A stretch of 64,000 nucleotides of DNA from Chloracidobacterium validum (lineage in GTDB: Bacteria; Acidobacteriota; Blastocatellia; Chloracidobacteriales; Chloracidobacteriaceae). The position numbers were made by a program, and so were the translations under genes. Of the stretch, positions 11,502 through 27,852 are shown piece after piece (within the stretch, counting starts at the first letter, position 1; every line of letters starts with the position of its first letter). Where the stretch lies: contig NZ_CP072648.1 in assembly GCF_018304825.1 (NCBI RefSeq), forward strand, positions 2,091,501 to 2,155,500. The letters run 5' to 3'. A model generated the notes under the pieces. The model was not told the DNA's origin and did no database searches. It saw nothing but the letters and a program-made list of their open reading frames with translations.

Positions 11502-11583
11502 ACTTGTTACACAGGCAGGAATGCCTGCGCTACGCTCTATACCTACTTGTTACACAGGCAGGAATGCCTGTGCTACGCTCTAT
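11502..11583. repeat. Two direct repeats of a palindromic 39-bp element (REP-like)
   Basis: Copies at 11502-11540 and 11545-11583 differ at one base (GCCTGC versus GCCTGT), with a period of 43 bp. Each carries the hairpin ACAGGCAGGAATGCCTGT, a 7-bp stem with a GGAA loop that is perfect in the second copy. The block lies between convergent genes, a typical position for bacterial interspersed palindromic elements. Confidence 0.85.
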
Positions 11584-17490: not shown

Positions 17491-18324
17491 CTAACGCAAC
17501 CAGCCCGGCGGGACGCCAAGCCGCCGGGCCTCTTCTTGTAAAACCGCGTATTGCACGTACAACCCGGTCAGTCGCGCCTGGGCGTCTCGAATACGCTCAT
17601 TGACCTGTATCAGTTCTTGTTTTTCAGCCGAGATAACTTCTTGCGGCAGCATAATCTGGTTACCGAACACATCGCGGCCGAAAAGATAGGTTCGTCCTTG
17701 CTGATCAACCTTACGCTGGAGTGTCCGTGCCTGTTCGTTGAGTGAGCGGATGATTTCCTGTTGGGTATAAATCTCCGTAAAAATCGCCTGCGCCCGCCCA
17801 CGCCAATAAGCTTCGTCATTGGCGCGCGTCAGGGCTGGCACTGACTCGCCTCGATTTTCGGCCACATTCGATGACGGCGAGCTGGAAGCCGACCGCGAGC
17901 GTACGGCCGCGACATCACGCATTCCGCCCCCAAAGTCGGCATTGGTCAGCGTCCGGGTTGGTTTGCGTGCCGGTGGTGGTGCAGCCGCGCGCGGAGTAAC
18001 GGGCGATGGCGTCACCGCCTGGAGGGAAGTGACCTGATTATCCGCCCCAATCACACGGGGCAGCCCAGCTTTTGCTCGAAACTCGCCGTCACCTTGCCCA
18101 TTGACTCGCTCGGTTGCGGCAATGTCAATGTTGACCAGTGAAATGGAAACGCGCTTTCCGTCGGATGTCGTAAACACGGCAACATCATTGACGATGCGAT
18201 ACTCCGCCCGCACATCCAGGCGCTTGCCATCCCGAAGCACCAGTATGTAGTCTGCGGCAGAGGCAGTGCCTGACCAGAGCAGCGTTACCAGCCCAATCAC
18301 AGTCGTGGTCATCCAGCGCGTCAT
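17491..18324 (-). CDS. Secreted coiled-coil protein of unknown function
   Basis: 277 residues. The start ATG at 18324 follows GGGAGG by 5 nt. A signal peptide ends at ASA in TLLWSGTASAADY. The next 50 residues form a small beta domain (YILVLRDGKRLDVRAEYRIVNDVAVFTTSDGKRVSISLVNIDI), a pattern shared by other acidobacterial secreted proteins. A low-complexity Pro/Ala/Arg linker follows, then a C-terminal coiled coil (EIYTQQEIIRSLNEQARTLQ; INERIRDAQARL) of about 90 residues. No catalytic motif is seen. It precedes the VWFA gene by 95 bp and may form an envelope operon with it. Confidence 0.75.
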   Translation of the reverse strand: MTRWMTTTVIGLVTLLWSGTASAADYILVLRDGKRLDVRAEYRIVNDVAVFTTSDGKRVSISLVNIDIAATERVNGQGDGEFRAKAGLPRVIGADNQVTSLQAVTPSPVTPRAAAPPPARKPTRTLTNADFGGGMRDVAAVRSRSASSSPSSNVAENRGESVPALTRANDEAYWRGRAQAIFTEIYTQQEIIRSLNEQARTLQRKVDQQGRTYLFGRDVFGNQIMLPQEVISAEKQELIQVNERIRDAQARLTGLYVQYAVLQEEARRLGVPPGWLR

Positions 18325-18506
18325 AACGTCCTCCCAGCCCCGCCAAGTTCCCCACGAAAGCCACCATTTTGCGTAACCGAGTACGCATCACAGAATCCAT
18401 CAAGTGACATCCAAACATAGCACGGCGCTTTGCTCTTCGGCGATATGACGTGCTTAGATATGGTGACTCTCGACTGGATGCCAACCTTATTCCAGTACCC
18501 TGCACC

Positions 18507-20051
18507 ATGCCCGTGACGCATTCTGAACTCGCGCTGATTCTCGACTTTGGTTCGCAATACACCCAACTCATCGCTCGCCGCGCACGCGAGTTGGGTATTT
18601 ATTGTGAGATTGTACCCTGCCACACACCATTGGACGATATTCGCTCGGCGGCGCCCCAAGCGCTTGTGCTATCTGGCGGCCCGGCGTCAGTTTATACGCC
18701 GGACGCGCCCCGGTGCGATGCCGGGATTTTTACCCTTGGCATACCAATTCTCGGTATTTGTTACGGACTCCAAACCATGGCAGTTGAGTTCGGCGGAACG
18801 GTTGAGCCTTCCACCCGACGCGAGTTTGGATCCGCCCAGCTCCGCCACATTGGGACAAGCCAGCTCTTTGATGGCCTACCGGAAAGTTTCGATGTCTGGA
18901 TGAGCCACGGCGACCACGTCACGACCCCGCCGCCGGGCTTTACCGTGACGGCGCACACCGCCGATGCGTTGGGCGCGCTCGAAGACCCCAGCCGACGACT
19001 CTACGGTTTGCAGTTCCACCCGGAAGTTGTGCATACGCCACTTGGCCGCGACATTCTCCGCAACTTTTTCATCGGCATTGCTGGCATGCGCGCCGACTGG
19101 AACATGCAGAGTTTCGTCGAGTCGGCGGTGGCCGACATTCGCGCCCGAATCGGCCCGAACCGTGCCGTGTGCGGACTTTCTGGCGGTGTGGATTCGGCTG
19201 TGGCGGCGGCGCTGGTGGCCGAAGCCATCGGCGACCGGCTGACGTGTCTTTTCGTGGATAATGGACTGTTACGGCAAGGCGAGTTTGACGAAGTGCTGAC
19301 GATGTTACGCGACAAGATGGACTTGAATGTTAGGGGCATCGCCGCCGGTGAACGCTTCTTGACGGCGCTGGCCGGCGTCGAAGACCCCGAAGCCAAACGT
19401 AAAGTCATCGGGCGAGTATTTGTTGAGGTCTTTCAGGAAGAAGCCGCCAAACTCGGTCAAGTTGATTTCCTTGTCCAGGGAACGCTTTACCCGGATGTCA
19501 TCGAATCGGTATCGGTCAAAGGGCCGTCAGCCGTCATCAAAACTCACCATAACGTTGGCGGACTGCCGGAGACCCTCCATTTGAAGTTGATCGAGCCGCT
19601 GCGCGAACTCTTCAAGGACGAGGTGCGGGCCATCGGTCGCCACCTCGGACTGCCGCCGGAGCTTTTGAACCGGCATCCATTTCCAGGGCCGGGGTTGGCG
19701 GTGCGCATCATTGGAGAAGTGACCCCGGCGCGCGTTGCCTTGCTCCAACGCGCTGACGCCATTGTGACCGAGGAAGTCCGCGCTGCCGGCCTATATGACG
19801 ACATTTGGCAGGTCTTTGCCGTCCTGCTTCCCGTGCGCAGCGTAGGCGTCATGGGCGACGAGCGCACATACGAACACGTCTGCGCGATTCGCGCCGTGAC
19901 GAGCGAGGATGGCATGACGGCCGATTGGGTACGGTTGCCCTACGACGTGTTGCACCGCATCAGCCGCCGGATCATTGGCGAAGTGCGCGGCATCAATCGC
20001 GTGACCTACGATATTTCCTCGAAGCCCCCGGCAACGATTGAGTGGGAATGA
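18507..20051 (+). CDS. guaA: GMP synthase (glutamine-hydrolysing)
   Basis: 514 residues from the ATG at 18507. The enzyme converts XMP to GMP. The class I glutamine amidotransferase domain has the nucleophile in ILGICYGLQ (Cys about 83) and the His-Glu pair in LQFHPEV. The ATP pyrophosphatase domain has the PP-loop LSGGVDSA at about 222. The C-terminal dimerisation domain ends in PPATIEWE. Codons about 299-318 (19401-19460) are copied exactly at 21209-21268. The gene's 3' end, a known integration hotspot for genomic islands in other bacteria, borders the accessory region here. guaB is at 42.5 kb, so the two guanine genes are not linked. Confidence 0.97.
19401..19460 (+). repeat. 60-bp internal guaA segment, source copy
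   Basis: This stretch begins AAAGTCATCGGGCGAG and ends ACTCGGTCAA. It is identical over 60 bases to 21209-21268, in the same orientation. The flanks differ on both sides. Confidence 0.95.
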
Positions 20052-20174
20052 TCTGACGTCCGGCACAAGCCGGTAGGGTCTAGCGCCAACTTTTCCTGGC
20101 ATAGTCACTGGCACGGAAACGATGTCATGCCATGTCGGCTCTCGATACGGTGCACCCTGTTCTGAGGTAGTCAT

Positions 20175-20345
20175 AGTGCCGGAATCTTGTAGGCTGATGA
20201 CCTAAGACGTAGAGGCTTTGATGAAAGACCTCCGGGCTTGTAAGACTGAACTGCACAAGCTCATGGGGCGCGCAGTTCAGGGAGATGAGGGGATAGCCCG
20301 CAAGCAGCCCAAGGTCAGACGAGGAGGCGCTGCCGTCTGAACCTT
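20175..20345. ncRNA. Candidate structured non-coding element behind guaA (three consecutive stem-loops)
   Basis: No ORF with recognisable coding signal covers 20052-20407. Three hairpins stand in a row: 20212-20219 with 20224-20232 (GAGGCTTT/AAAG-A-CCTC, GATG loop); 20246-20254 with 20272-20280 (CTGAACTGC/GCAGTTCAG, 9 bp perfect, 17-nt loop); and 20311-20321 with 20334-20345 (AAGGTCAGACG/CGTCTGAACCTT, 11 bp with one bulge). GGGCT at 20234 can pair with AGCCC at 20295-20299 to enclose the middle hairpin. It could be a small RNA, the non-coding end of a mobile element, or an island boundary structure. No known class was recognised and the strand is unknown. Confidence 0.35.
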
Positions 20346-20352
20346 GCATTAG

Positions 20353-20389
20353 TGCTGTCATCCAGCTATAGCTGCTTTCATTGACAGCA
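20353..20389. promoter_or_regulatory. Inverted repeat upstream of the antitoxin gene, probable operator
   Basis: TGCTGTCA (20353-20360) and TGACAGCA (20382-20389) are a perfect 8-bp inverted repeat around a central AGCTATAGCT palindrome. It sits 18 bp before the antitoxin start. FitAB and VapBC complexes bind such palindromes to autoregulate their operons, so an operator is the best reading. Confidence 0.5.
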
Positions 20390-20407
20390 TAATGGAGGCA
20401 TTGCATC

Positions 20408-20662
20408 ATGGCGGTCTTGACGATTAGGAACGTGCCTGAAGACGTGCACCAGGCACTGCGGGTGCGGGCGGCACAGCATGGCCGCAGTACCGAGGCCGAG
20501 GTACGAGAGATCCTTGCCGCGGCAGTCAAGCCGGAAAACCGCGTGCGCGTTGGGGATGCTCTGGCTGCCATCGGTCGGAAGATCGGTTTGACCGAAGAGG
20601 ATTTCGCCGTCCTTGAGAGTATCCGGGACAAGACGACGGCCGAACCGCCGAGGTTCGAATGA
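20408..20662 (+). CDS. fitA: FitA/VapB-type ribbon-helix-helix antitoxin
   Basis: 84 residues. The N-terminal ribbon-helix-helix MAVLTIRNVPEDVHQALRVRAAQHGRSTEAEVREIL is typical of FitA-like antitoxins. The C-terminal tail (about residues 40-84) would thread over the toxin's active site. GGAGG lies 11 nt upstream of the ATG at 20408. The stop overlaps the toxin start as ATGA, so the two are translationally coupled. It probably represses its own operon through the palindrome at 20353-20389. Confidence 0.9.
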   Translation: MAVLTIRNVPEDVHQALRVRAAQHGRSTEAEVREILAAAVKPENRVRVGDALAAIGRKIGLTEEDFAVLESIRDKTTAEPPRFE

Positions 20663-21078
20663 TCGTCCTCGATACCAACGTCGTATCCGAGGCGATGAAG
20701 CCGGAGCCGAACGCGGCCGTCATGGCCTTTCTGAACGACCAGGCGGCGGAGACCCTGTACATCTCCAGTGTCACAGTGGCCGAGTTGCTGTTCGGCATTC
20801 AGGCGCTGCCGCAGGGTAGGCGCAGAAACATGCTGGACGGCGCTCTCAATGACCTGCTGGAGCTGTTCAAGGATCGTGTGCTGCCCTTTGACACGGATGC
20901 CGCGCGGCATTACGCCGAGCTGGCGGTTGCGGCCAGAAATGGCGGACGCGGTTTCCCGACACCGGACGGTTACATCGCGGCCATCGCGGCATCGCGTGGC
21001 TTCAGCGTGGCATCACGTGATACCGCGCCCTTTGAGGCGGTGGGGGTGGCCGTTATCAATCCTTGGGGCGGTGCATAG
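20659..21078 (+). CDS. fitB: FitB/VapC-type PIN-domain toxin
   Basis: 139 residues. PIN-domain ribonuclease with the acidic metal-binding residues D5 (LDTNVVSE), E42 (VAELLFG), D103 (PTPDGYIAAIA) and D121 (SRDTAPF), all intact. VapC-family toxins cut tRNA or rRNA unless bound by the antitoxin encoded immediately upstream. Unlike the neighbouring restriction genes, this pair shows no lesion, which fits the tendency of such modules to persist in decaying islands. Confidence 0.92.
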   Translation: MIVLDTNVVSEAMKPEPNAAVMAFLNDQAAETLYISSVTVAELLFGIQALPQGRRRNMLDGALNDLLELFKDRVLPFDTDAARHYAELAVAARNGGRGFPTPDGYIAAIAASRGFSVASRDTAPFEAVGVAVINPWGGA

Positions 21079-21105
21079 GCTCTGATACCTCCGAAGTTAC
21101 GCAGA

Positions 21106-21157
21106 TTGCCTGCGCTCGGCAGTGGCCATTTACCACTGGGCTGAGCAAGCACAGGCA
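21106..21157. other. Nested inverted repeat after the toxin gene
   Basis: TTGCCTG and CAGGCAA form an outer stem around CAGTGG/CCACTG separated by CCATTTA. It lies 30 bp after the toxin stop. There is no T-tract, so it is a possible factor-dependent terminator or a mobile-element relic. Confidence 0.4.
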
Positions 21158-21208
21158 ATGCACGACAGCAAACAAAAGCCTCCACCTTATTGGGATGGCT
21201 TAAGCAGC

Positions 21209-21268
21209 AAAGTCATCGGGCGAGTATTTGTTGAGGTCTTTCAGGAAGAAGCCGCCAAACTCGGTCAA
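21209..21268 (+). repeat. Exact 60-bp copy of an internal guaA segment
   Basis: Identical to 19401-19460 and in the same orientation, but outside any gene. It marks a duplication or a recombination joint inside the accessory region. It is not the guaA 3' end, so it is not a standard attachment-site duplication. Confidence 0.95.
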
Positions 21269-21309
21269 AACGACAGGTAGGTTCCCAAGGCTAAATGAGG
21301 CTTCGGGTA

Positions 21310-23972
21310 TTACAACGACTTATCTGGATCGGACCGCATCCATGAGGTGGAGTCCAACGCCTTCCTGATGAGATGCCACGCCCTATTTTCTACCCAGACA
21401 AAGCGGCAGCGCCCCTCGCTGCGCCGCGCCCACAACTCGCCGATGCGCCTCTTCTCTTGGCTGTTGTGACTGCTGGCGATGTACGCACCCTTGTACTCGA
21501 CGGCCAGCAGCGGGCCATCTTTCATTTGCACGATGAAATCAGGATAGAAACGGTCGGTGGCGGTTTGCAGCCAGAACGACGTCGGCTTGCGCTCGACGTT
21601 GCGTACCCACCAAGACACGCCCTCGAGATGGTTGGCGATGAACTCGGCGCACTCGAACTCCTCGCCGCTGCTCTTCAAGTTACCAATCACCGGGAAGAAG
21701 TGGCGCTTGAGCGGCATCAGTCCGGTGTACGGGTAGTCATAGGCATAGCGCCCCTGCTCCAGCGTGATGCTGTGTTCATCGCGCAGCGCGAACTTCTCCT
21801 CGTTGTTAAACAGCCCATCGAACACCCGCTGCTTGGCCAGCACTAGGCCCGCCGCCATCTTGCGCTGCAGCGCCCCACGCAGACGGAACTTGCGGTAGGC
21901 CAACTCGTCCAGCGTGAAGCCCCGCGCCTCGATCAAGTGGTTCAGCGCCGCTACGATCCAGGCCACCTTTTGGTCTCGTTCCGAATAAGGAAAGTACAGG
22001 TTGCGGTCCAGCCAGTAGATCAAATCGTTGAGCGTCCAGCCCTCTTCCCGGCCAAACAGCGCCAACTGGCTGTCGAGCCGGTCGTACACGTCGCACTCGA
22101 TTTTTTCCAGTTGCGAGATCGAAAGCGTTGCCCGGCGCATGGCCTCCACGTCGCGGGTAAACTCGCTCTCGGTTAGCTTCGGGTCGAAGTCGGTGATCTC
22201 CCAACCGGCATCCAGCAGCGGTGTTTCGTCGAACACATCGAAAAAGCCGCGCCGAGCGTCCTGGGTGTAGCTCAAGAGGGGCACGTGCACTTTGTGACCC
22301 TGCTCCGCCAAGCTGGGCACCCGCGCGGGCGGCGCGCTTTGCGCGGCCAGTGCCGTGTCCAGCCATTCGCGCACCTGCTTGGCAACTTCCTCATCCCGGA
22401 AGGTCCGCGCCAGTTGCTGAATCTGCTGTGGCGTCGCCCCGCCTTTGACCGTCAGCGTGCCGCTTTCGGGCGACACATCCACCTTGTCGCGCAGCGCCTT
22501 GGGTAGCGCGGACAGCTCCGCCTCATCCGGCACCACCACCGCATTCTCCATCTCCGGCAGCGGGATCACCAGATCGTCCTGCGGCGCAAACAGGCCTGGC
22601 GTGATGGAGACATCCGCCGCCGGGCAGATGAGGTCCCGGGTCTCCAACCGCTCGAAGCCGCTTTGCACCAGCCCGTCGCGCAGTCCCTGCACCGTGGCCG
22701 CCAGCTCCGACGACACCACATAGGCATAGCTGCGGTTGAGCGCCTCTCGCCGTTTGCGCGTGACGCGCGGCATGCGCAGCACCCGTCCCAACACCTGCTC
22801 CACCGCCGTAGCCGAAGTGGTGTTGCGGAAGGAAAACAGCACATAGGCATTGGGGCAGTCCCAGCCCTCGCGCAGCTTGTCCACGGTGATGATGAACTGC
22901 GGATAGTCTGGATCATCCAGCCGCTTGCCGGTCAGTTCGTCAAAGGCACCTGTGGCAATGGCAATCCGATCGGGCGGGACGTTGAAGTCCTCGATCAGAT
23001 GCTGCTTGACCCGCTCCGGCGTGAAGGTCTCTTTGTCTGCGGCCTTGCGCTCGGCCTGGATCAGCATCACCACCGGGCGGATGACCTCGCCAGTCTGCTG
23101 TTGCTCCAGTTCTGCCTCATTTTCTAGTTGGCGTAAGCGGGCAATCGCTTCGGCCAGCGAAACCCGCCACTCCGGGTGGACGGCTAACTCCAGCGGCAGC
23201 TTGAGCATGTCCTCCGCCTGCAACGTGGCGGCAGAGACGCTGCGCAGCACATTGGAGGGTTGGCTGGCGCGTCCGGCGTGGCCGTCAGCTCCAGAATGCA
23301 GGCCGGGTTTAGGCGCACCAGCGTGTCCACCGCCAACGGCGTCCCCTGGTTGTGCGCCTCGTCCACGATGACGAAGGGGCGGCGCAGGCGGATCACATCC
23401 ACCAGCGAGTGCTCGCCTTTCTGCTCAGGCGAAACGCCTTCGAAGTGTGGCATCAGCGCACCGTTTTGGCGATAGACACGCAAGCCCTCGGCCGTGTCGC
23501 GCTTGAAGCTCTGCATGGTGGCCACGATGAAGGTGTTGCCTGTGTTGAGCGTGGCCGGTTGCAGATACAGCGCCTCGGCGATGTCCAGCACATGCGCCGC
23601 ACCGAAGAGAGCGCGCATGTCCTGGTGCAGCAGTTCCCCTTGCGTCCTGAGTGCCCGCAGCGTCTGTTCGCGGATCGGGTCGGAGGGCACCAGCCACAGC
23701 ACCAGCGCGTGTTCCGTGGCCAGAAATGCCTCGTTCACCCGCCGGATGGCCTGCCCCGCAATGCGCGTCTTGCCGCCGCCGGTAGGCACACGCAAGCAGA
23801 CATAGGGCACCTGGGGCGCCCCAGGCAGCGGGTGGTACGGCAAGGCATGGCCGAAGTGGGCACAGGTCGATTCTGCAAAGGCGGCGACAGGGTTCCTAAG
23901 CTCGCGGCAGCGCTCCAGATACGCGGCAAAAGCGTCGAGCAGGTCTCTTTGAAAGTTCTTCAGTTCGTTCAT
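21310..23972 (-). pseudogene. Type III restriction endonuclease subunit (Res), frameshifted
   Basis: About 890 residues in two frames. The N-terminal part (23184-23972) has Walker A RVPTGGGKTRIAGQAI, the DEAH box FVIVDEAHNQG and motif III ELTATPD. It then leaves frame at about 23255-23290. The second part (from about 23250) continues in the next frame with SNVLRSVSAATLQAEDMLKLPLE, motif VI (ATAVEQVLGRVLRMPR) and a C-terminal PD-(D/E)xK nuclease signature (FYPDFIV...LLAVEYKGAY). One base lost or gained explains the split. Res needs the Mod subunit for specificity. Its start overlaps the upstream small ORF as ATGA. A sequencing error is the alternative to real decay. Confidence 0.85.
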
Positions 23973-24184
23973 TTTGGGGAACCACCGGAGGATGGCGCTT
24001 CACCGGGATGGACTGCGTCCACCTCGTCAGGCTTGATCAGCTTGACGCGCCCATCTTCGCTTATGACCAAAGCCGTTTGCGTTTGCCGCGCCAGCTCACG
24101 CGCGCGCCGCGCAGCGCGCTTAAGGGCCTCAAAAGAGGCAGAAATATCGAAATTTTTCACCTGATCCAAGGACCGTTGGTTCAT
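23969..24184 (-). CDS. Small coupled protein between zeta-like kinase and res
   Basis: 71 residues, basic and helical in the middle (FEALKRAARRARELARQTQTALVISEDGRVKLIKPDEV). The pattern suggests a DNA- or partner-binding helix followed by a short beta hairpin, as in small antitoxins. The ATG at 24184 overlaps the original stop of the kinase gene, and its own stop overlaps the res start. Coupling on both sides marks it as a real operon member, and it could be the antitoxin of the zeta-like protein. No family was recognised. Confidence 0.65.
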   Translation of the reverse strand: MNQRSLDQVKNFDISASFEALKRAARRARELARQTQTALVISEDGRVKLIKPDEVDAVHPGEAPSSGGSPK

Positions 24185-24687
24185 GATTTTTCACCCCAAT
24201 CCAGCAACCTCGGCTGCAACCCCGAATTGTCGTACAAAACCTAAAAATCCACGACAGCCGCATAATAGCGCTGCAAGTTCTCCAATCCTGCCTTGAAGCG
24301 GCGTCGGATGGTCTCGGGCGCAATGTCATGGCCGCCTTGTTTGACTCGCTGGGCCACGCGCGCCAGGGCTTCTTCAGGTGTGTTGAGCTTTAGAAAGATC
24401 AGCTCTACGGTATAGTCTGCCGCCTGCCAGCGCTTGATCCATTTCAGGTATCCACGCCCAGATAGTGTGGTCTCAAAAGCAAAACTTTCACCTGCGGCAA
24501 AATGGCGCTCCATTGCCTCTAACATCAAACGCCCTGCCTGCACAGCAGCGCGTTCCGGGGCAAATGGGGCAAGACCGGCGGCAATGAGAGCGGCATTGAT
24601 GAAGACCGGACAGGCAGCCTCGTTGGGCAGGAACTCGCGCGCGCAGGTCGTCTTCCCGGCGCCATTTGGTCCGGCGATGATGATCAC
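24181..24687 (-). pseudogene. Zeta-toxin-like P-loop kinase, nonsense-truncated near the C-terminus
   Basis: The ORF from a GTG at 24687 to a TAG at 24241-24243 gives 148 residues: Walker A MIIIAGPNGAGKTT, NAALIAAGL, ESFAFETTLSGRGYLKWIKRW, LIFLKLNTPEEALARVAQRVKQGGH and IRRRFKAGLENLQRYYAAVVDF. After the stop the same frame continues with VLYDNSGLQPRLLDWGEKS and ends at 24181, overlapping the next ATG. Family members normally read DFW.LYDNSG here, so a TGG to TAG change is the simplest cause. Zeta toxins phosphorylate UDP-sugars; members in restriction loci are little known. Activity may survive without the last 20 residues. Confidence 0.8.
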
Positions 24688-24698
24688 TTTGCGCTGTG

Positions 24699-26408
24699 TC
24701 AGAACCAGGTCTTCACCGCCAGTTCATAGGGCAGTTGGTGGAACGTGATGCGAAGTCGCGCGAGCTTGGCCTTGTCGAAGCGCGCGCGCGCCCCATACAC
24801 CACGCGCGGGCCGTCAAAGCTGGGCAGCGCCTCGTCCAGCACGGCTAGTGTGCGGCTGTTGAGCACGTTGCCGCCCAGGTCCGATTTGTCTCTGAGGATG
24901 CCGTTGTAGAGCAGATAGATGGCGCGGCCCTCGTGCACGCCGAGCAGCAGCGAATCAGCCGGGCCCGTGTAGCCGGTGCCGGTCTCGGCAAACCAGACGA
25001 ACTCGGCCAGTTGGGCAAAGGTCACGTCCGGGCGGATAGAACCATCCGCCCGGAACAACGGCTCCTCCGACAAGCGGCAAAACTGGAAGCCGCCGCCAAG
25101 GCCAGCGACGGCTCGGCCTTTGGCGTTGGTGTAGCCCTCGGCCACGTGCTTCACACGATTGCGCGTGACGTCGCGGGCGATGTTCCCGTCCATCTCGACA
25201 AGGATGAAGCGGCGGTGGCCGCCGTCTTCGGCTTTTGCTTGAGCACCCCATGCCCGGTGGTGCCAGAGCCTGCGTAGCTGTCCAGCACCAGCGCCGTGGG
25301 ATCGTTCATCATTTGAAGAATGCGTTCAATCAGCTCGACGGGCTTGGGCGTGTCGAACAGGTCGGCGGTGTTGAACACGTCGCGCAGGAATGCCTTGGCC
25401 TGCCGCATCGTCGGCAGGTCGGCCCAGATGCTTGGGTAAGGGCGCTTGGGGTCTTCTGGCGCGTACTCGCGCGTGTAGGGCTCCCATTGCGCTCAAACCC
25501 AACCCAAGCCATTCTGATGCCGCGTACTCGCGCGTGTAGGGCTCCCATACCGTCTGCCCCGGGCGTTCGCGCTGCTTCCAGATCAGGGTGCCGGCTGCCT
25601 TGTGGCGATCAATTCCGGCTCGACCCATTGCCCAGACAGCCTCCTCTCCGTTGTCATGGGTTGGGTGGACCTCGCTGCCATCGGGCGCGGTCAGAGGGAA
25701 GTACATCGTCGGGCGATCTCGCCGCAGACTGTTTCGCCCATTCTTCTTGAGCAGTCGGTCGCGGTAGCGGCGCCCTTCCTCATCGACCCGACCGTAGGCC
25801 TCGACAATGCCCGGCGCGGACATCTGCGCGAGCTTCAGGCGATCCTTGCTGCGGGCGTAGGCCAGCACGTATTCATGGTCTGGCGTAAGCGGGACTTTGT
25901 TGTCGTTCGGGCTATCGACCTTACGCCAAATGAAGCCAGTGATGAAGTTGCGAGCACCAAAGACTTCGTCCATCAGAGTCCGAAGGTTGCCGACCTCGTT
26001 GTCATCAATGGACACGAAGATCGCGCCGTCGTCGCGTAGGAACTGCTTCAGCAGCACGAGCCGCGGATACATCATGCACAGCCAGCGGTCGTGCCTATCC
26101 AGTGTCTCGCCTTCCTTGCCCACCACCTCGCCCAGCCACTTGCGGATCTCCGGGCTGTTGACGTTGTCGTTGTAAACCCAGCCCTCGTTGCCGGTGTTGT
26201 AGGGCGGATCGATGTAGATGCACTTCACCTGTCCCGCATAGCGGGGCAGCAGGGACTTGAGCGCATGCAGGTTGTCACCCTGCACGATGAGGTTGCCGCT
26301 CCCACTGTCGCCACCGGACAGCCCGGGCACCGGCTCCAGCAGGCGGAAGGGGACTTCCTTGTGATGCTTGACGACGGCTTCCTTGCCTATCCAGTTCAGT
26401 GTAGGCAT
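24699..26408 (-). pseudogene. Type III DNA methyltransferase (Mod), two frameshifts
   Basis: N-terminal part from the ATG at 26408: MPTLNWIGKEAVVKHHKEVP, then LIVQGDNLHALKSLLPRYAG and motif IV IYIDPPYNTGNEGW, an adenine-N6 beta-class signature. Frame is lost at WEPYTREYA, where a 28-bp block is duplicated 61 bp apart. The expected sequence resumes in another frame (MRQAKAFLRDVFNTADLFDTPKP, motif I LDSYAGSGTTGHGVLKQ) and shifts again near 25231-25245. It then continues as AEDGGHRRFILVEMDGNIARD to ITFHQLPYELAVKTWF at 24699. The order DPPY before FxGxG and the adjacent Res make it type III. As sequenced it cannot give a full enzyme. Confidence 0.87.
25459..25547. repeat. 28-bp direct repeat, 61 bp apart, that breaks mod
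   Basis: Copies at 25459-25486 and 25520-25547 (CGCGTACTCGCG...GCTCCCAT) are identical and separated by 33 bp. Removing one copy plus the spacer (61 bp, not a multiple of 3) would restore the mod reading frame, so this looks like a local duplication-insertion event. Confidence 0.9.
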
Positions 26409-26423
26409 GGCGCCTCGTGACCT

Positions 26424-26594
26424 TCAGTTCTGGCGGGCGTTGTTGCCGGCCGCGCTTTGTTCTTCATCGGCGTCCCCGGCGCGCACCCAGTCGTCCACCT
26501 CGGACAGCTTGAATTGCCGCAGCCGCCCGACGCGGTGCGCCGGCAGCCCGCGGTGTTCCCGTCAGCGATGGACGGTGTCCTCGGCCACGCCTCG
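26424..26594 (-). pseudogene. Excisionase-type helix-turn-helix regulator, remnant with nonsense codon
   Basis: Reading through a TGA at 26562-26564 gives RGVAEDTVHR-stop-REHRGLPAHRVGRL and then RQFKLSEVDDWVRAG. This matches the helix_turn_helix_17 pattern (V..DTV.RW....GLPAHRVGR..RF...EVD.W), with the stop standing where Trp is expected (TGG to TGA). The upstream part of the domain is not recognisable, so the N-terminus is also lost. It ends 15 bp before mod and was probably the first gene and regulator of the restriction operon. Confidence 0.65.
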
Positions 26595-27036
26595 CAATTC
26601 ACAACTATCAGTAAATACGCGATAGCTAGGAGATTGCGCAAGGTGTTGCTGGCCCACAAGCAAGCTTCTTGGGAATGGTCCAAGGTCTGGTATCAGTTGA
26701 TACTTAGCAGCGCGAGAACAAAGCCCGCGCAGAAACCAGCTCTTTTGTTTCAGCAACCGTTGCGCGCCGGCGCATTGGGCATTACGCTCCTCGCTTCCGA
26801 GTGATGTAGTCACCAGTCGGCCGAACAGTCACTGCCTTCCTGTTTCTGTGCCACTGCTGTTTCACAGGGGTAATCAACCAAACTATGTGTTACTGACCCT
26901 AACGTCATACCTGGAAGTTTCGAGAAGGCATCCGTGACGGCATGTTCCCAGGGCTTTAGTGGTTCGGCATCATAGTCTTTCGTTAAATAGGGCCTTGGGT
27001 GGTTGAGTGGAATCGCTATCGGGCGAAATAACAGTT
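26595..27036. other. Non-coding stretch at the island's right side
   Basis: About 440 bp without a credible gene on either strand. It holds the palindrome at 26690-26703, the presumed promoter of the restriction operon, and near its right end the motif TTGAGTGGAAT (27003-27013). That motif resembles the last codons of guaA (TTGAGTGGGAAT at 20038-20049). Confidence 0.5.
26690..26703. promoter_or_regulatory. 14-bp palindrome, possible operator of the restriction operon
   Basis: GTATCAGTTGATAC is an inverted repeat with 6-bp arms about 100 bp upstream of the recognisable part of the HTH remnant. Its place suggests a binding site for that regulator. Confidence 0.35.
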
Positions 27037-27852
27037 ATGTTCGTTGATTCGCACTGTCACGTAGATTTTCCCAGTTACGCCGAAGACCGGGCGGAAGTGC
27101 TCAACCGCGCGCGCGCGGCCGGCGTCGAAATGATGCTTGAAATTTGTGGTGGCGACATCGGGCGTGGGTCGCTGGACATCGGCATGGGAATCGTTGACCG
27201 GGAACCCGACGTGTACGGCGCGGTTGGCGTACACCCACACGACGCTGCCGATTATGGACCACCGCTGGAAGCCAAGCTGCTCGACCTGATGACGCACCCA
27301 AAGGTCATCGCCTGGGGTGAGATTGGACTGGATTACTACTACGACCGCTCGCCACGTCCGATGCAGCGCCAGGTGTTCACGCGGCAGATGACACTCGCCC
27401 GCGAACGCAACCTGCCGATCATTCTTCACATCCGTGACGCCGATGACGATATGGTCGCCATGCTGCGTGACTACTGGGTCGGCGTCGAGCGGCCGGGCAT
27501 TTTTCACTGCTTCAGCGGTTCTTGGAAGCTGATGGAAGCCGGCGTCGCGCTGGGCTTCCACATCTCGTTTTCGGGCAACGTGACCTTCAAGAAAAACCAC
27601 GAACTCCGTGCCATTGCCCGCGCCGTTCCGCGTGACCGTCTGCTCATTGAAACCGATTGCCCGTTTTTGTCGCCAGAACCCTTTCGGGGCAAACGCAACG
27701 AACCGGTGCGCGTCATCGAAGTCGCCCGGCAGTTGGCGCAGCTTCACGAAATGGACCTTGCCGACCTCGGCCGCCTGACAACGGCAAACTTTTACCGCCT
27801 CTTTCGCTTTGAAACACCTGTCTCGCCGGTGGCGACCAGTGGGACGGCATGA
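27037..27852 (+). CDS. tatD: TatD-family metal-dependent DNase
   Basis: 271 residues from the ATG at 27037. Metal-binding motif DSHCHVD is at residues 4-10, with further ligands in WGEIGLDYYY (Glu), LPIILHIRDADDD (His), FHCFSG (His) and IETDCPFLSPEP (Asp). TatD proteins are 3'-5' exonucleases or hydrolases linked to DNA repair and peroxide resistance. FRGKRNEPVRV and the TTANFYRLF tail are typical. Its stop overlaps the next gene's start as ATGA. Confidence 0.93.
   Translation: MFVDSHCHVDFPSYAEDRAEVLNRARAAGVEMMLEICGGDIGRGSLDIGMGIVDREPDVYGAVGVHPHDAADYGPPLEAKLLDLMTHPKVIAWGEIGLDYYYDRSPRPMQRQVFTRQMTLARERNLPIILHIRDADDDMVAMLRDYWVGVERPGIFHCFSGSWKLMEAGVALGFHISFSGNVTFKKNHELRAIARAVPRDRLLIETDCPFLSPEPFRGKRNEPVRVIEVARQLAQLHEMDLADLGRLTTANFYRLFRFETPVSPVATSGTA

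Follow-up and report, generated by a model that had tools for sequence, protein, structure and literature searches.

Organization of the guaA-tatD region

The window, as we call the whole 64-kb stretch of Chloracidobacterium validum DNA analysed here, contains a guaA gene that is separated from tatD by an insertion (Table 1). In order from guaA, the insertion carries an antitoxin-toxin pair, a short copy of part of guaA and then, on the opposite strand, a res gene in two frames, a zeta-like kinase gene and a mod gene in more than one frame. The split of the res frame is either a real frameshift or a sequencing or assembly indel. A 71-aa ORF (23969-24184) also lies between res and mod of this type III system. 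The guaA copy sits between the two modules and not at the edge of the insertion, the right edge being 5.8 kb away.

Table 1. Coordinates of the features in and around the guaA-tatD insertion (positions of the window)
Feature	Position	Strand	Evidence
guaA, glutamine-hydrolysing GMP synthase, intact, 514 aa	18507..20051	+	NCBIfam NF000848 E 6.5e-236; Pfam GATase, GMP_synt_C
Donor segment in guaA, 20 codons	19401..19460	+	four relatives have the homologous segment at its place in guaA
Insertion between guaA stop and tatD ATG, ~7 kb	20052..27036	.	absent here in 5/5 relatives compared
Antitoxin, FitA-like ribbon-helix-helix	20408..20662	+	PF22513 E 3.7e-21
PIN-domain toxin, VapC-like	20659..21078	+	PF01850 E 1.6e-17
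Second copy of donor segment	21209..21268	+	exact match, in accessory DNA
Type III restriction subunit (res), two overlapping frames	21310..23972	-	PADLOC REase_III E 2.4e-76 (21310-23250), 3.4e-32 (23184-23972)
Zeta-toxin-like kinase ORF between res and mod	24241..24687	-	PF06414 E 8.7e-9
Type III DNA methyltransferase (mod), broken into frames	25178..26408	-	PADLOC MTase_III E 1.1e-109 for 25326-26408
28-bp direct repeat, copy farther downstream in mod	25460..25487	-	exact repeat search
33-nt insert	25488..25520	-	exact copy of chromosome 2, C2:587773-587805
28-bp direct repeat, copy farther upstream in mod	25521..25548	-	exact repeat search

The guaA-tatD junction was compared in five relatives (G001, G003, G005, G006 and the MAG contig CALGZC010000040.1); two other genomes of the genus, G002 and G004, gave no match and were kept outside this comparison. 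In all five, guaA is followed by tatD, and nothing between them matches 20052-27036, save that the guaA gene itself matches the 60-mer in four. In three relatives, 7-24 bp separate the aligned ends. G001 and G005 carry other sequence at this place, of 1,547 and 531 bp respectively, so that what follows guaA varies within the genus. The initial annotation had placed the copy in an accessory region beside an antitoxin-toxin pair, and this is borne out by an insertion that has no counterpart in any of the five relatives and by the FitA-like ribbon-helix-helix and PIN-domain genes that adjoin the copy. It had also suggested searching related genomes for the second copy, and none of the relatives searched carries it.

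The island is matched by 268 plasmid records, including 3 at 90-95% and 15 at 80-90% identity. The plasmid matches listed (20 of the 268) all fall on the antitoxin-toxin pair or on mod, never on the guaA copy. For the copy with its flanks (21067-21400) there was no phage match and a single weak plasmid match of 36 bp; the stretch 20052-20367 had no plasmid match, and the first 28 bases of the 60-mer had 0 exact matches in viral contigs. When the copy and its res side were searched in 396 genomes of the phylum, nine places were found besides the two in the window, four of them in guaA and five corresponding to short res pieces, with no empty site among them.

An exact copy of an internal guaA segment

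The exact duplication with unrelated flanks that had been described for this region stands: the two segments agree at 60 of 60 bases, in the same orientation and 1,808 bp apart, and the bases next to them agree at 3 of 15 positions on the left and 4 of 15 on the right. No 8-mer is shared between the 150-bp flanks of the two copies, and the flank comparison revealed no guaA similarity past the 60 bp on either side of the copy. Throughout the 3.66-Mb genome (two contigs totalling 3,659,143 bp, of which the first has 2,659,040 bp) the 60-mer is present twice, the next match by score being 17 bp long. The chance of an exact 60-mer repeat arising in 64 kb is about 1e-27 by arithmetic, which is negligible.

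It is also the longest exact repeat in the window, followed by repeats of 28 and 26 bp. A survey of 46 stretches that add up to 920 kb, or 25% of the genome, with CRISPR arrays excluded, yielded 125 exact repeat pairs of at least 24 bp. Only three of these were isolated, that is, at least 300 bp apart and with unrelated flanks: one is the guaA 60-mer, another measures 34 bp, and the third, of 24 bp, is part of a REP-like repeat. The guaA-tatD insertion contains one end of two of these pairs. No isolated pair of the same kind was found in 200 kb of each of two relatives, words seen more than 12 times being skipped. The REP-like palindromic repeats form a family (core CAGGCAGGAATGCCTG) that occurs at several places in the genome, partly in tandem (window 11502-11570; C1:1953038 and 2249150).

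The donor segment corresponds to codons 299-318 of the 514 codons of guaA and not to the 3' end of the gene, in agreement with the earlier description of an internal piece distinct from the 3'-end duplications of integrases. The copy, extended by some bases on its left, is 83-87% identical to guaA of the four relatives over 66-67 columns (13-17% differ); since those genes differ while the two copies in the window are identical, the source of the copy is guaA of this very lineage. From this comparison we infer that copying took place after the split from those four relatives, or that identity to guaA has been kept since. The initial annotation had suggested that the event was recent and that it may date from the formation of the island. 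The absence of any difference in 60 bp, with relatives 13-17% away, agrees with the first statement, but it only sets a bound: 0 differences in 60 still allow about 5% divergence since copying (95% limit, by arithmetic), so that "recent" is to be taken loosely. The second statement, on timing, was not borne out, the copy lying between two modules within the island.

Recombination between the two copies, with deletion of what they bracket, had been proposed as well. This is geometrically possible for the antitoxin-toxin pair, a "structured stretch" and the 3' part of guaA, but it would truncate guaA. The product would lose 1,808 bp, comprising both genes of the antitoxin-toxin pair and all of guaA beyond codon 318 (the last 196 of 514 codons), and with them the C-terminal domain of the enzyme (residues 422-513). 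As the deletion would leave a truncated GMP synthase, the repeat pair is not plausible as a switch.

The "structured stretch" does not stand out: the folding z score of 20052-20407 is -1.63, 6 of 100 shuffled sequences were as stable, and it has no Rfam match. The fold of 21079-21309 is likewise ordinary (z -1.32), and a comparison of 18000-27500 with Rfam at E values up to 1 gave one match, far under the gathering score and outside the island. A strong imperfect hairpin (21106-21162) is seen between the PIN toxin gene and the guaA copy, the stretch 21100-21170 folding at -29 kcal/mol. This hairpin has no second copy in the genome, no phage match and, in plasmids, only one weak match of 36 bp.

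A 28 + 33 insertion in the methyltransferase gene

The mod gene is broken 4.2 kb from the guaA copy. A homologue from Azospirillum can be aligned to mod both before the break (26294-25521) and after it (25486-25178), and the ORF at 24699-25193, for which no family match was found, may be the end of mod. The break measures 61 bp and consists of a 28-bp target duplication and 33 nt, the two 28-bp copies thus being 61 bp apart. Both of them encode WEPYTREYA and the frame shifts between them, and the Azospirillum homologue has the corresponding WVPYAREYAPE once. Because the stretch is single there and double here, with a change of frame, we conclude that 61 bp were inserted and that mod was broken thereby. 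The match of the insert to chromosome 2 is 34 bp long, one base being in common with the 28-bp repeat, and an exact 34-mer would turn up in this genome by chance with a probability of about 2e-14 (arithmetic). By eye, the frame at the source reads like that of a tetratricopeptide protein.

A complete type I-E system (cas1e, cas2e, cas5e, cas6e, cas3, cas7e, cas8e and cas11e) is present on chromosome 2. The operon and its array of 44 to 45 repeats extend from C2:533900 to about 545640. The period of the array is 61 bp in 39 of 43 intervals (39 of 44 when a looser rule gives 45 repeats), and the last base of the repeat is a G in 43 of 45 repeats. In E. coli, the 33-nt spacer adjoining the 28-bp duplicated unit begins with that G. 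The insert in mod begins with a G and, at the source, this G is preceded by GA. GAG is an accepted PAM of type I-E systems in general, though not necessarily of this strain. A spacer length of 33 bp is given in PMC9699676. Since the 61 bp inserted in mod equal the unit length of the strain's own type I-E array, the insertion looks like an off-target spacer, and a natural off-target type I-E integration of a self-derived spacer, by which the methyltransferase gene was broken, is in our view likely. The sequence of the target speaks against it: in one orientation it agrees with the native array repeat at 11 of 28 positions, a score reached by 1499 of the 13916 28-mers of the island (about 1 in 9), and in the other orientation at 13 of 28 (unranked).

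Outside the array segments, 840 kb were searched for exact runs of 27-30 bp with periods of 40-120. A period of 61 was encountered three times and periods of 42, 84 and 91 once each; one of the three cases is a REP-like tandem array. Another isolated 28-bp repeat with a 61-bp period lies at C1:501786-501874, where there is no recognised gene, behind a frame that by eye resembles ribosomal protein L20. The 33 nt between its copies also start with a G, which makes them a candidate second off-target spacer. Even when up to 3 mismatches are allowed, the genome contains no further match to this 33-mer, and 23 of its bases gave 0 exact matches in viral contigs. Chromosome 2 further bears three other Cas1 genes and at least three other arrays. 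The spacers of four arrays, compared with 520 kb of sequence, had only 15-16-bp matches outside the arrays, with no self-targeting spacer among them.

Off-target integration is known to occur naturally in Yersinia pestis and Sulfolobus islandicus. For E. coli, non-canonical, or off-target, integration of spacers by the type I-E Cas1-Cas2 proteins has been described (Nivala et al. 2018, as cited in PMC11788318 and PMC9456107), and the portions of PMC8390005 and PMC10284694 available to us hold nothing on natural cases. We make no claim that off-target self-spacer insertions of this kind are unreported. If confirmed, the insertion in mod would show that CRISPR adaptation can act as a mutator and inactivate genes in a natural isolate, the array of the host serving as a yardstick, and in this respect it is more worth following up than the guaA 60-mer.

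Origin of the 60-bp copy

Integrases are recognised by a duplicate of the target gene's 3' end at the edge of the element, transposases and Cas1-Cas2 by a duplicated target; classical end-joining requires Ku. No target-site duplication was found at the 60-mer: the best candidate agrees at 3 of 5 bases, and 932 of 1000 random junctions do as well or better. The same test detects the 28-bp duplication in mod. Ku was found in none of nine genomes, this one included (two of the nine are less than 90% complete), which argues against capture by classical end-joining. With none of the marks of an integrase, of a transposase or Cas1-Cas2 or of end-joining found, what is left is a template switch, or a single-stranded fragment, at a fork or gap. 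We thus infer, with a probability of roughly three in four, that the 60 bp at 21209-21268 are a one-off templated insertion, by template switch or short-fragment capture, and that they are probably without function. The initial annotation had spoken of a recombination or template-switch event, and we judge this the best explanation of an exact copy with an intact donor and unrelated flanks. While the inserted DNA beside guaA was being replicated or repaired, a growing strand, or a short single-stranded fragment, would have gained 60 nt of guaA; the template would have been 1.8 kb away, and the strand would then have gone back, leaving guaA intact. Template switching usually shows itself by microhomology at the junctions, which is read against the empty site; searches of the phylum genomes, plasmids and phages gave no empty site for this part of the island. 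What fits a templated insertion less well is that the copy begins on a codon boundary, spans 20 codons and extends an open frame of 52 aa (21122-21280), the boundary start and the whole-codon length together being a coincidence of about 1 in 9.

The composite nature of the island would suit a different history, in which the island was built in a sibling strain or guaA-linked DNA arrived by transformation, the 60 bp being a leftover homology anchor or a trimmed larger guaA duplication. Among the plasmid matches listed, a Variovorax record shares 78.7% identity with the antitoxin-toxin DNA (20367-21066), and the Mod protein matches that of Azospirillum at 53% over 259 aligned columns. However, such an origin is unlikely, as guaA similarity stops at the 60 bp on either side and guaA is intact, so that no partial cross-over product is visible.

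The nearby insertion in mod raises the question of the host type I-E machinery. We consider it improbable that this adaptation machinery wrote both self pieces into the island, mod receiving a canonical 28 + 33 spacer and the 60-mer being a longer, unprocessed fragment integrated with no target duplication; all that the two insertions share is that they are short pieces of host DNA in the same island. For the 60-mer taken by itself, off-target integration of a self fragment by Cas1-Cas2 could draw on the complete type I-E system of the genome and on the 28 + 33 signature elsewhere in the island, but the copy is 60 nt long instead of 33 and is surrounded by no duplication, of 28 bp or otherwise. 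Wrong length and missing duplication concern the two defining features of a spacer integration, and on their account the off-target spacer reading fails, leaving it very improbable.

A function of the copy is highly doubtful. Read-through from the res side along the minus strand (21268-21209) would give 60 nt perfectly antisense to the guaA mRNA, and on the plus strand a 52-aa peptide would contain 20 GuaA residues. The res frame ends 41 bp from the copy and points at it, and a terminator-like site is found just past the copy on the minus strand (21198-21182), but one such site was found where 1.0 is expected in shuffled sequences, and no conservation was seen, as none of the searched relatives has the copy.

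That the second copy is an assembly artefact is scarcely credible. The frameshifts in res suggest that small indel errors may persist, and PacBio reads are the only ones named for the assembly. Strain BV2-C was, according to the part of its description available to us, sequenced on the PacBio Sequel and assembled with Canu (PMC8245765, which names BioProject PRJNA717397), and such long reads should span repeats 1.8 kb apart, which makes an assembly error unlikely. An integrase-type element with guaA as its attachment site, for which the start of the insertion at the guaA stop codon would speak, can be dismissed almost entirely, as the repeated segment comes from the interior of guaA and its second copy stands well within the island, 5.8 kb short of the right edge, with no integrase among the eight island proteins tested by domain search and no tRNA, hence no tRNA integration target, in the 64-kb window.

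Comparison with known systems

guaA is a known integration site of genomic islands. The present insertion resembles integrase islands at the guaA 3' end in lying directly behind the gene, and differs from them in that its repeat is gene-internal and within the island and that no integrase was found among the proteins tested. A diversity-generating retroelement, which likewise has two copies of a short coding segment, was rejected: 0 of 60 positions differ, and there are no adenine-directed changes.

The insertion in mod is like off-target integration by type I-E Cas1-Cas2 in its 28-bp duplication, its 33 nt of self DNA and the presence in the genome of an array with 61-bp units, and unlike it in a target that poorly resembles the array repeat (11/28; 13/28 in the other orientation). 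The 60-mer differs from such integration by its wrong length and by having no duplication.

Altogether, the guaA copy illustrates cleanly what a short templated insertion looks like in nature, here in a bacterium in which the search for Ku found none. The closest known systems are templated insertion by template switching and SPDIR, short-patch double illegitimate recombination. As in these, a short segment of the same genome was copied, the donor stayed intact and the junctions are abrupt; the 60-mer is a fresh instance of a kind of event that is already known.
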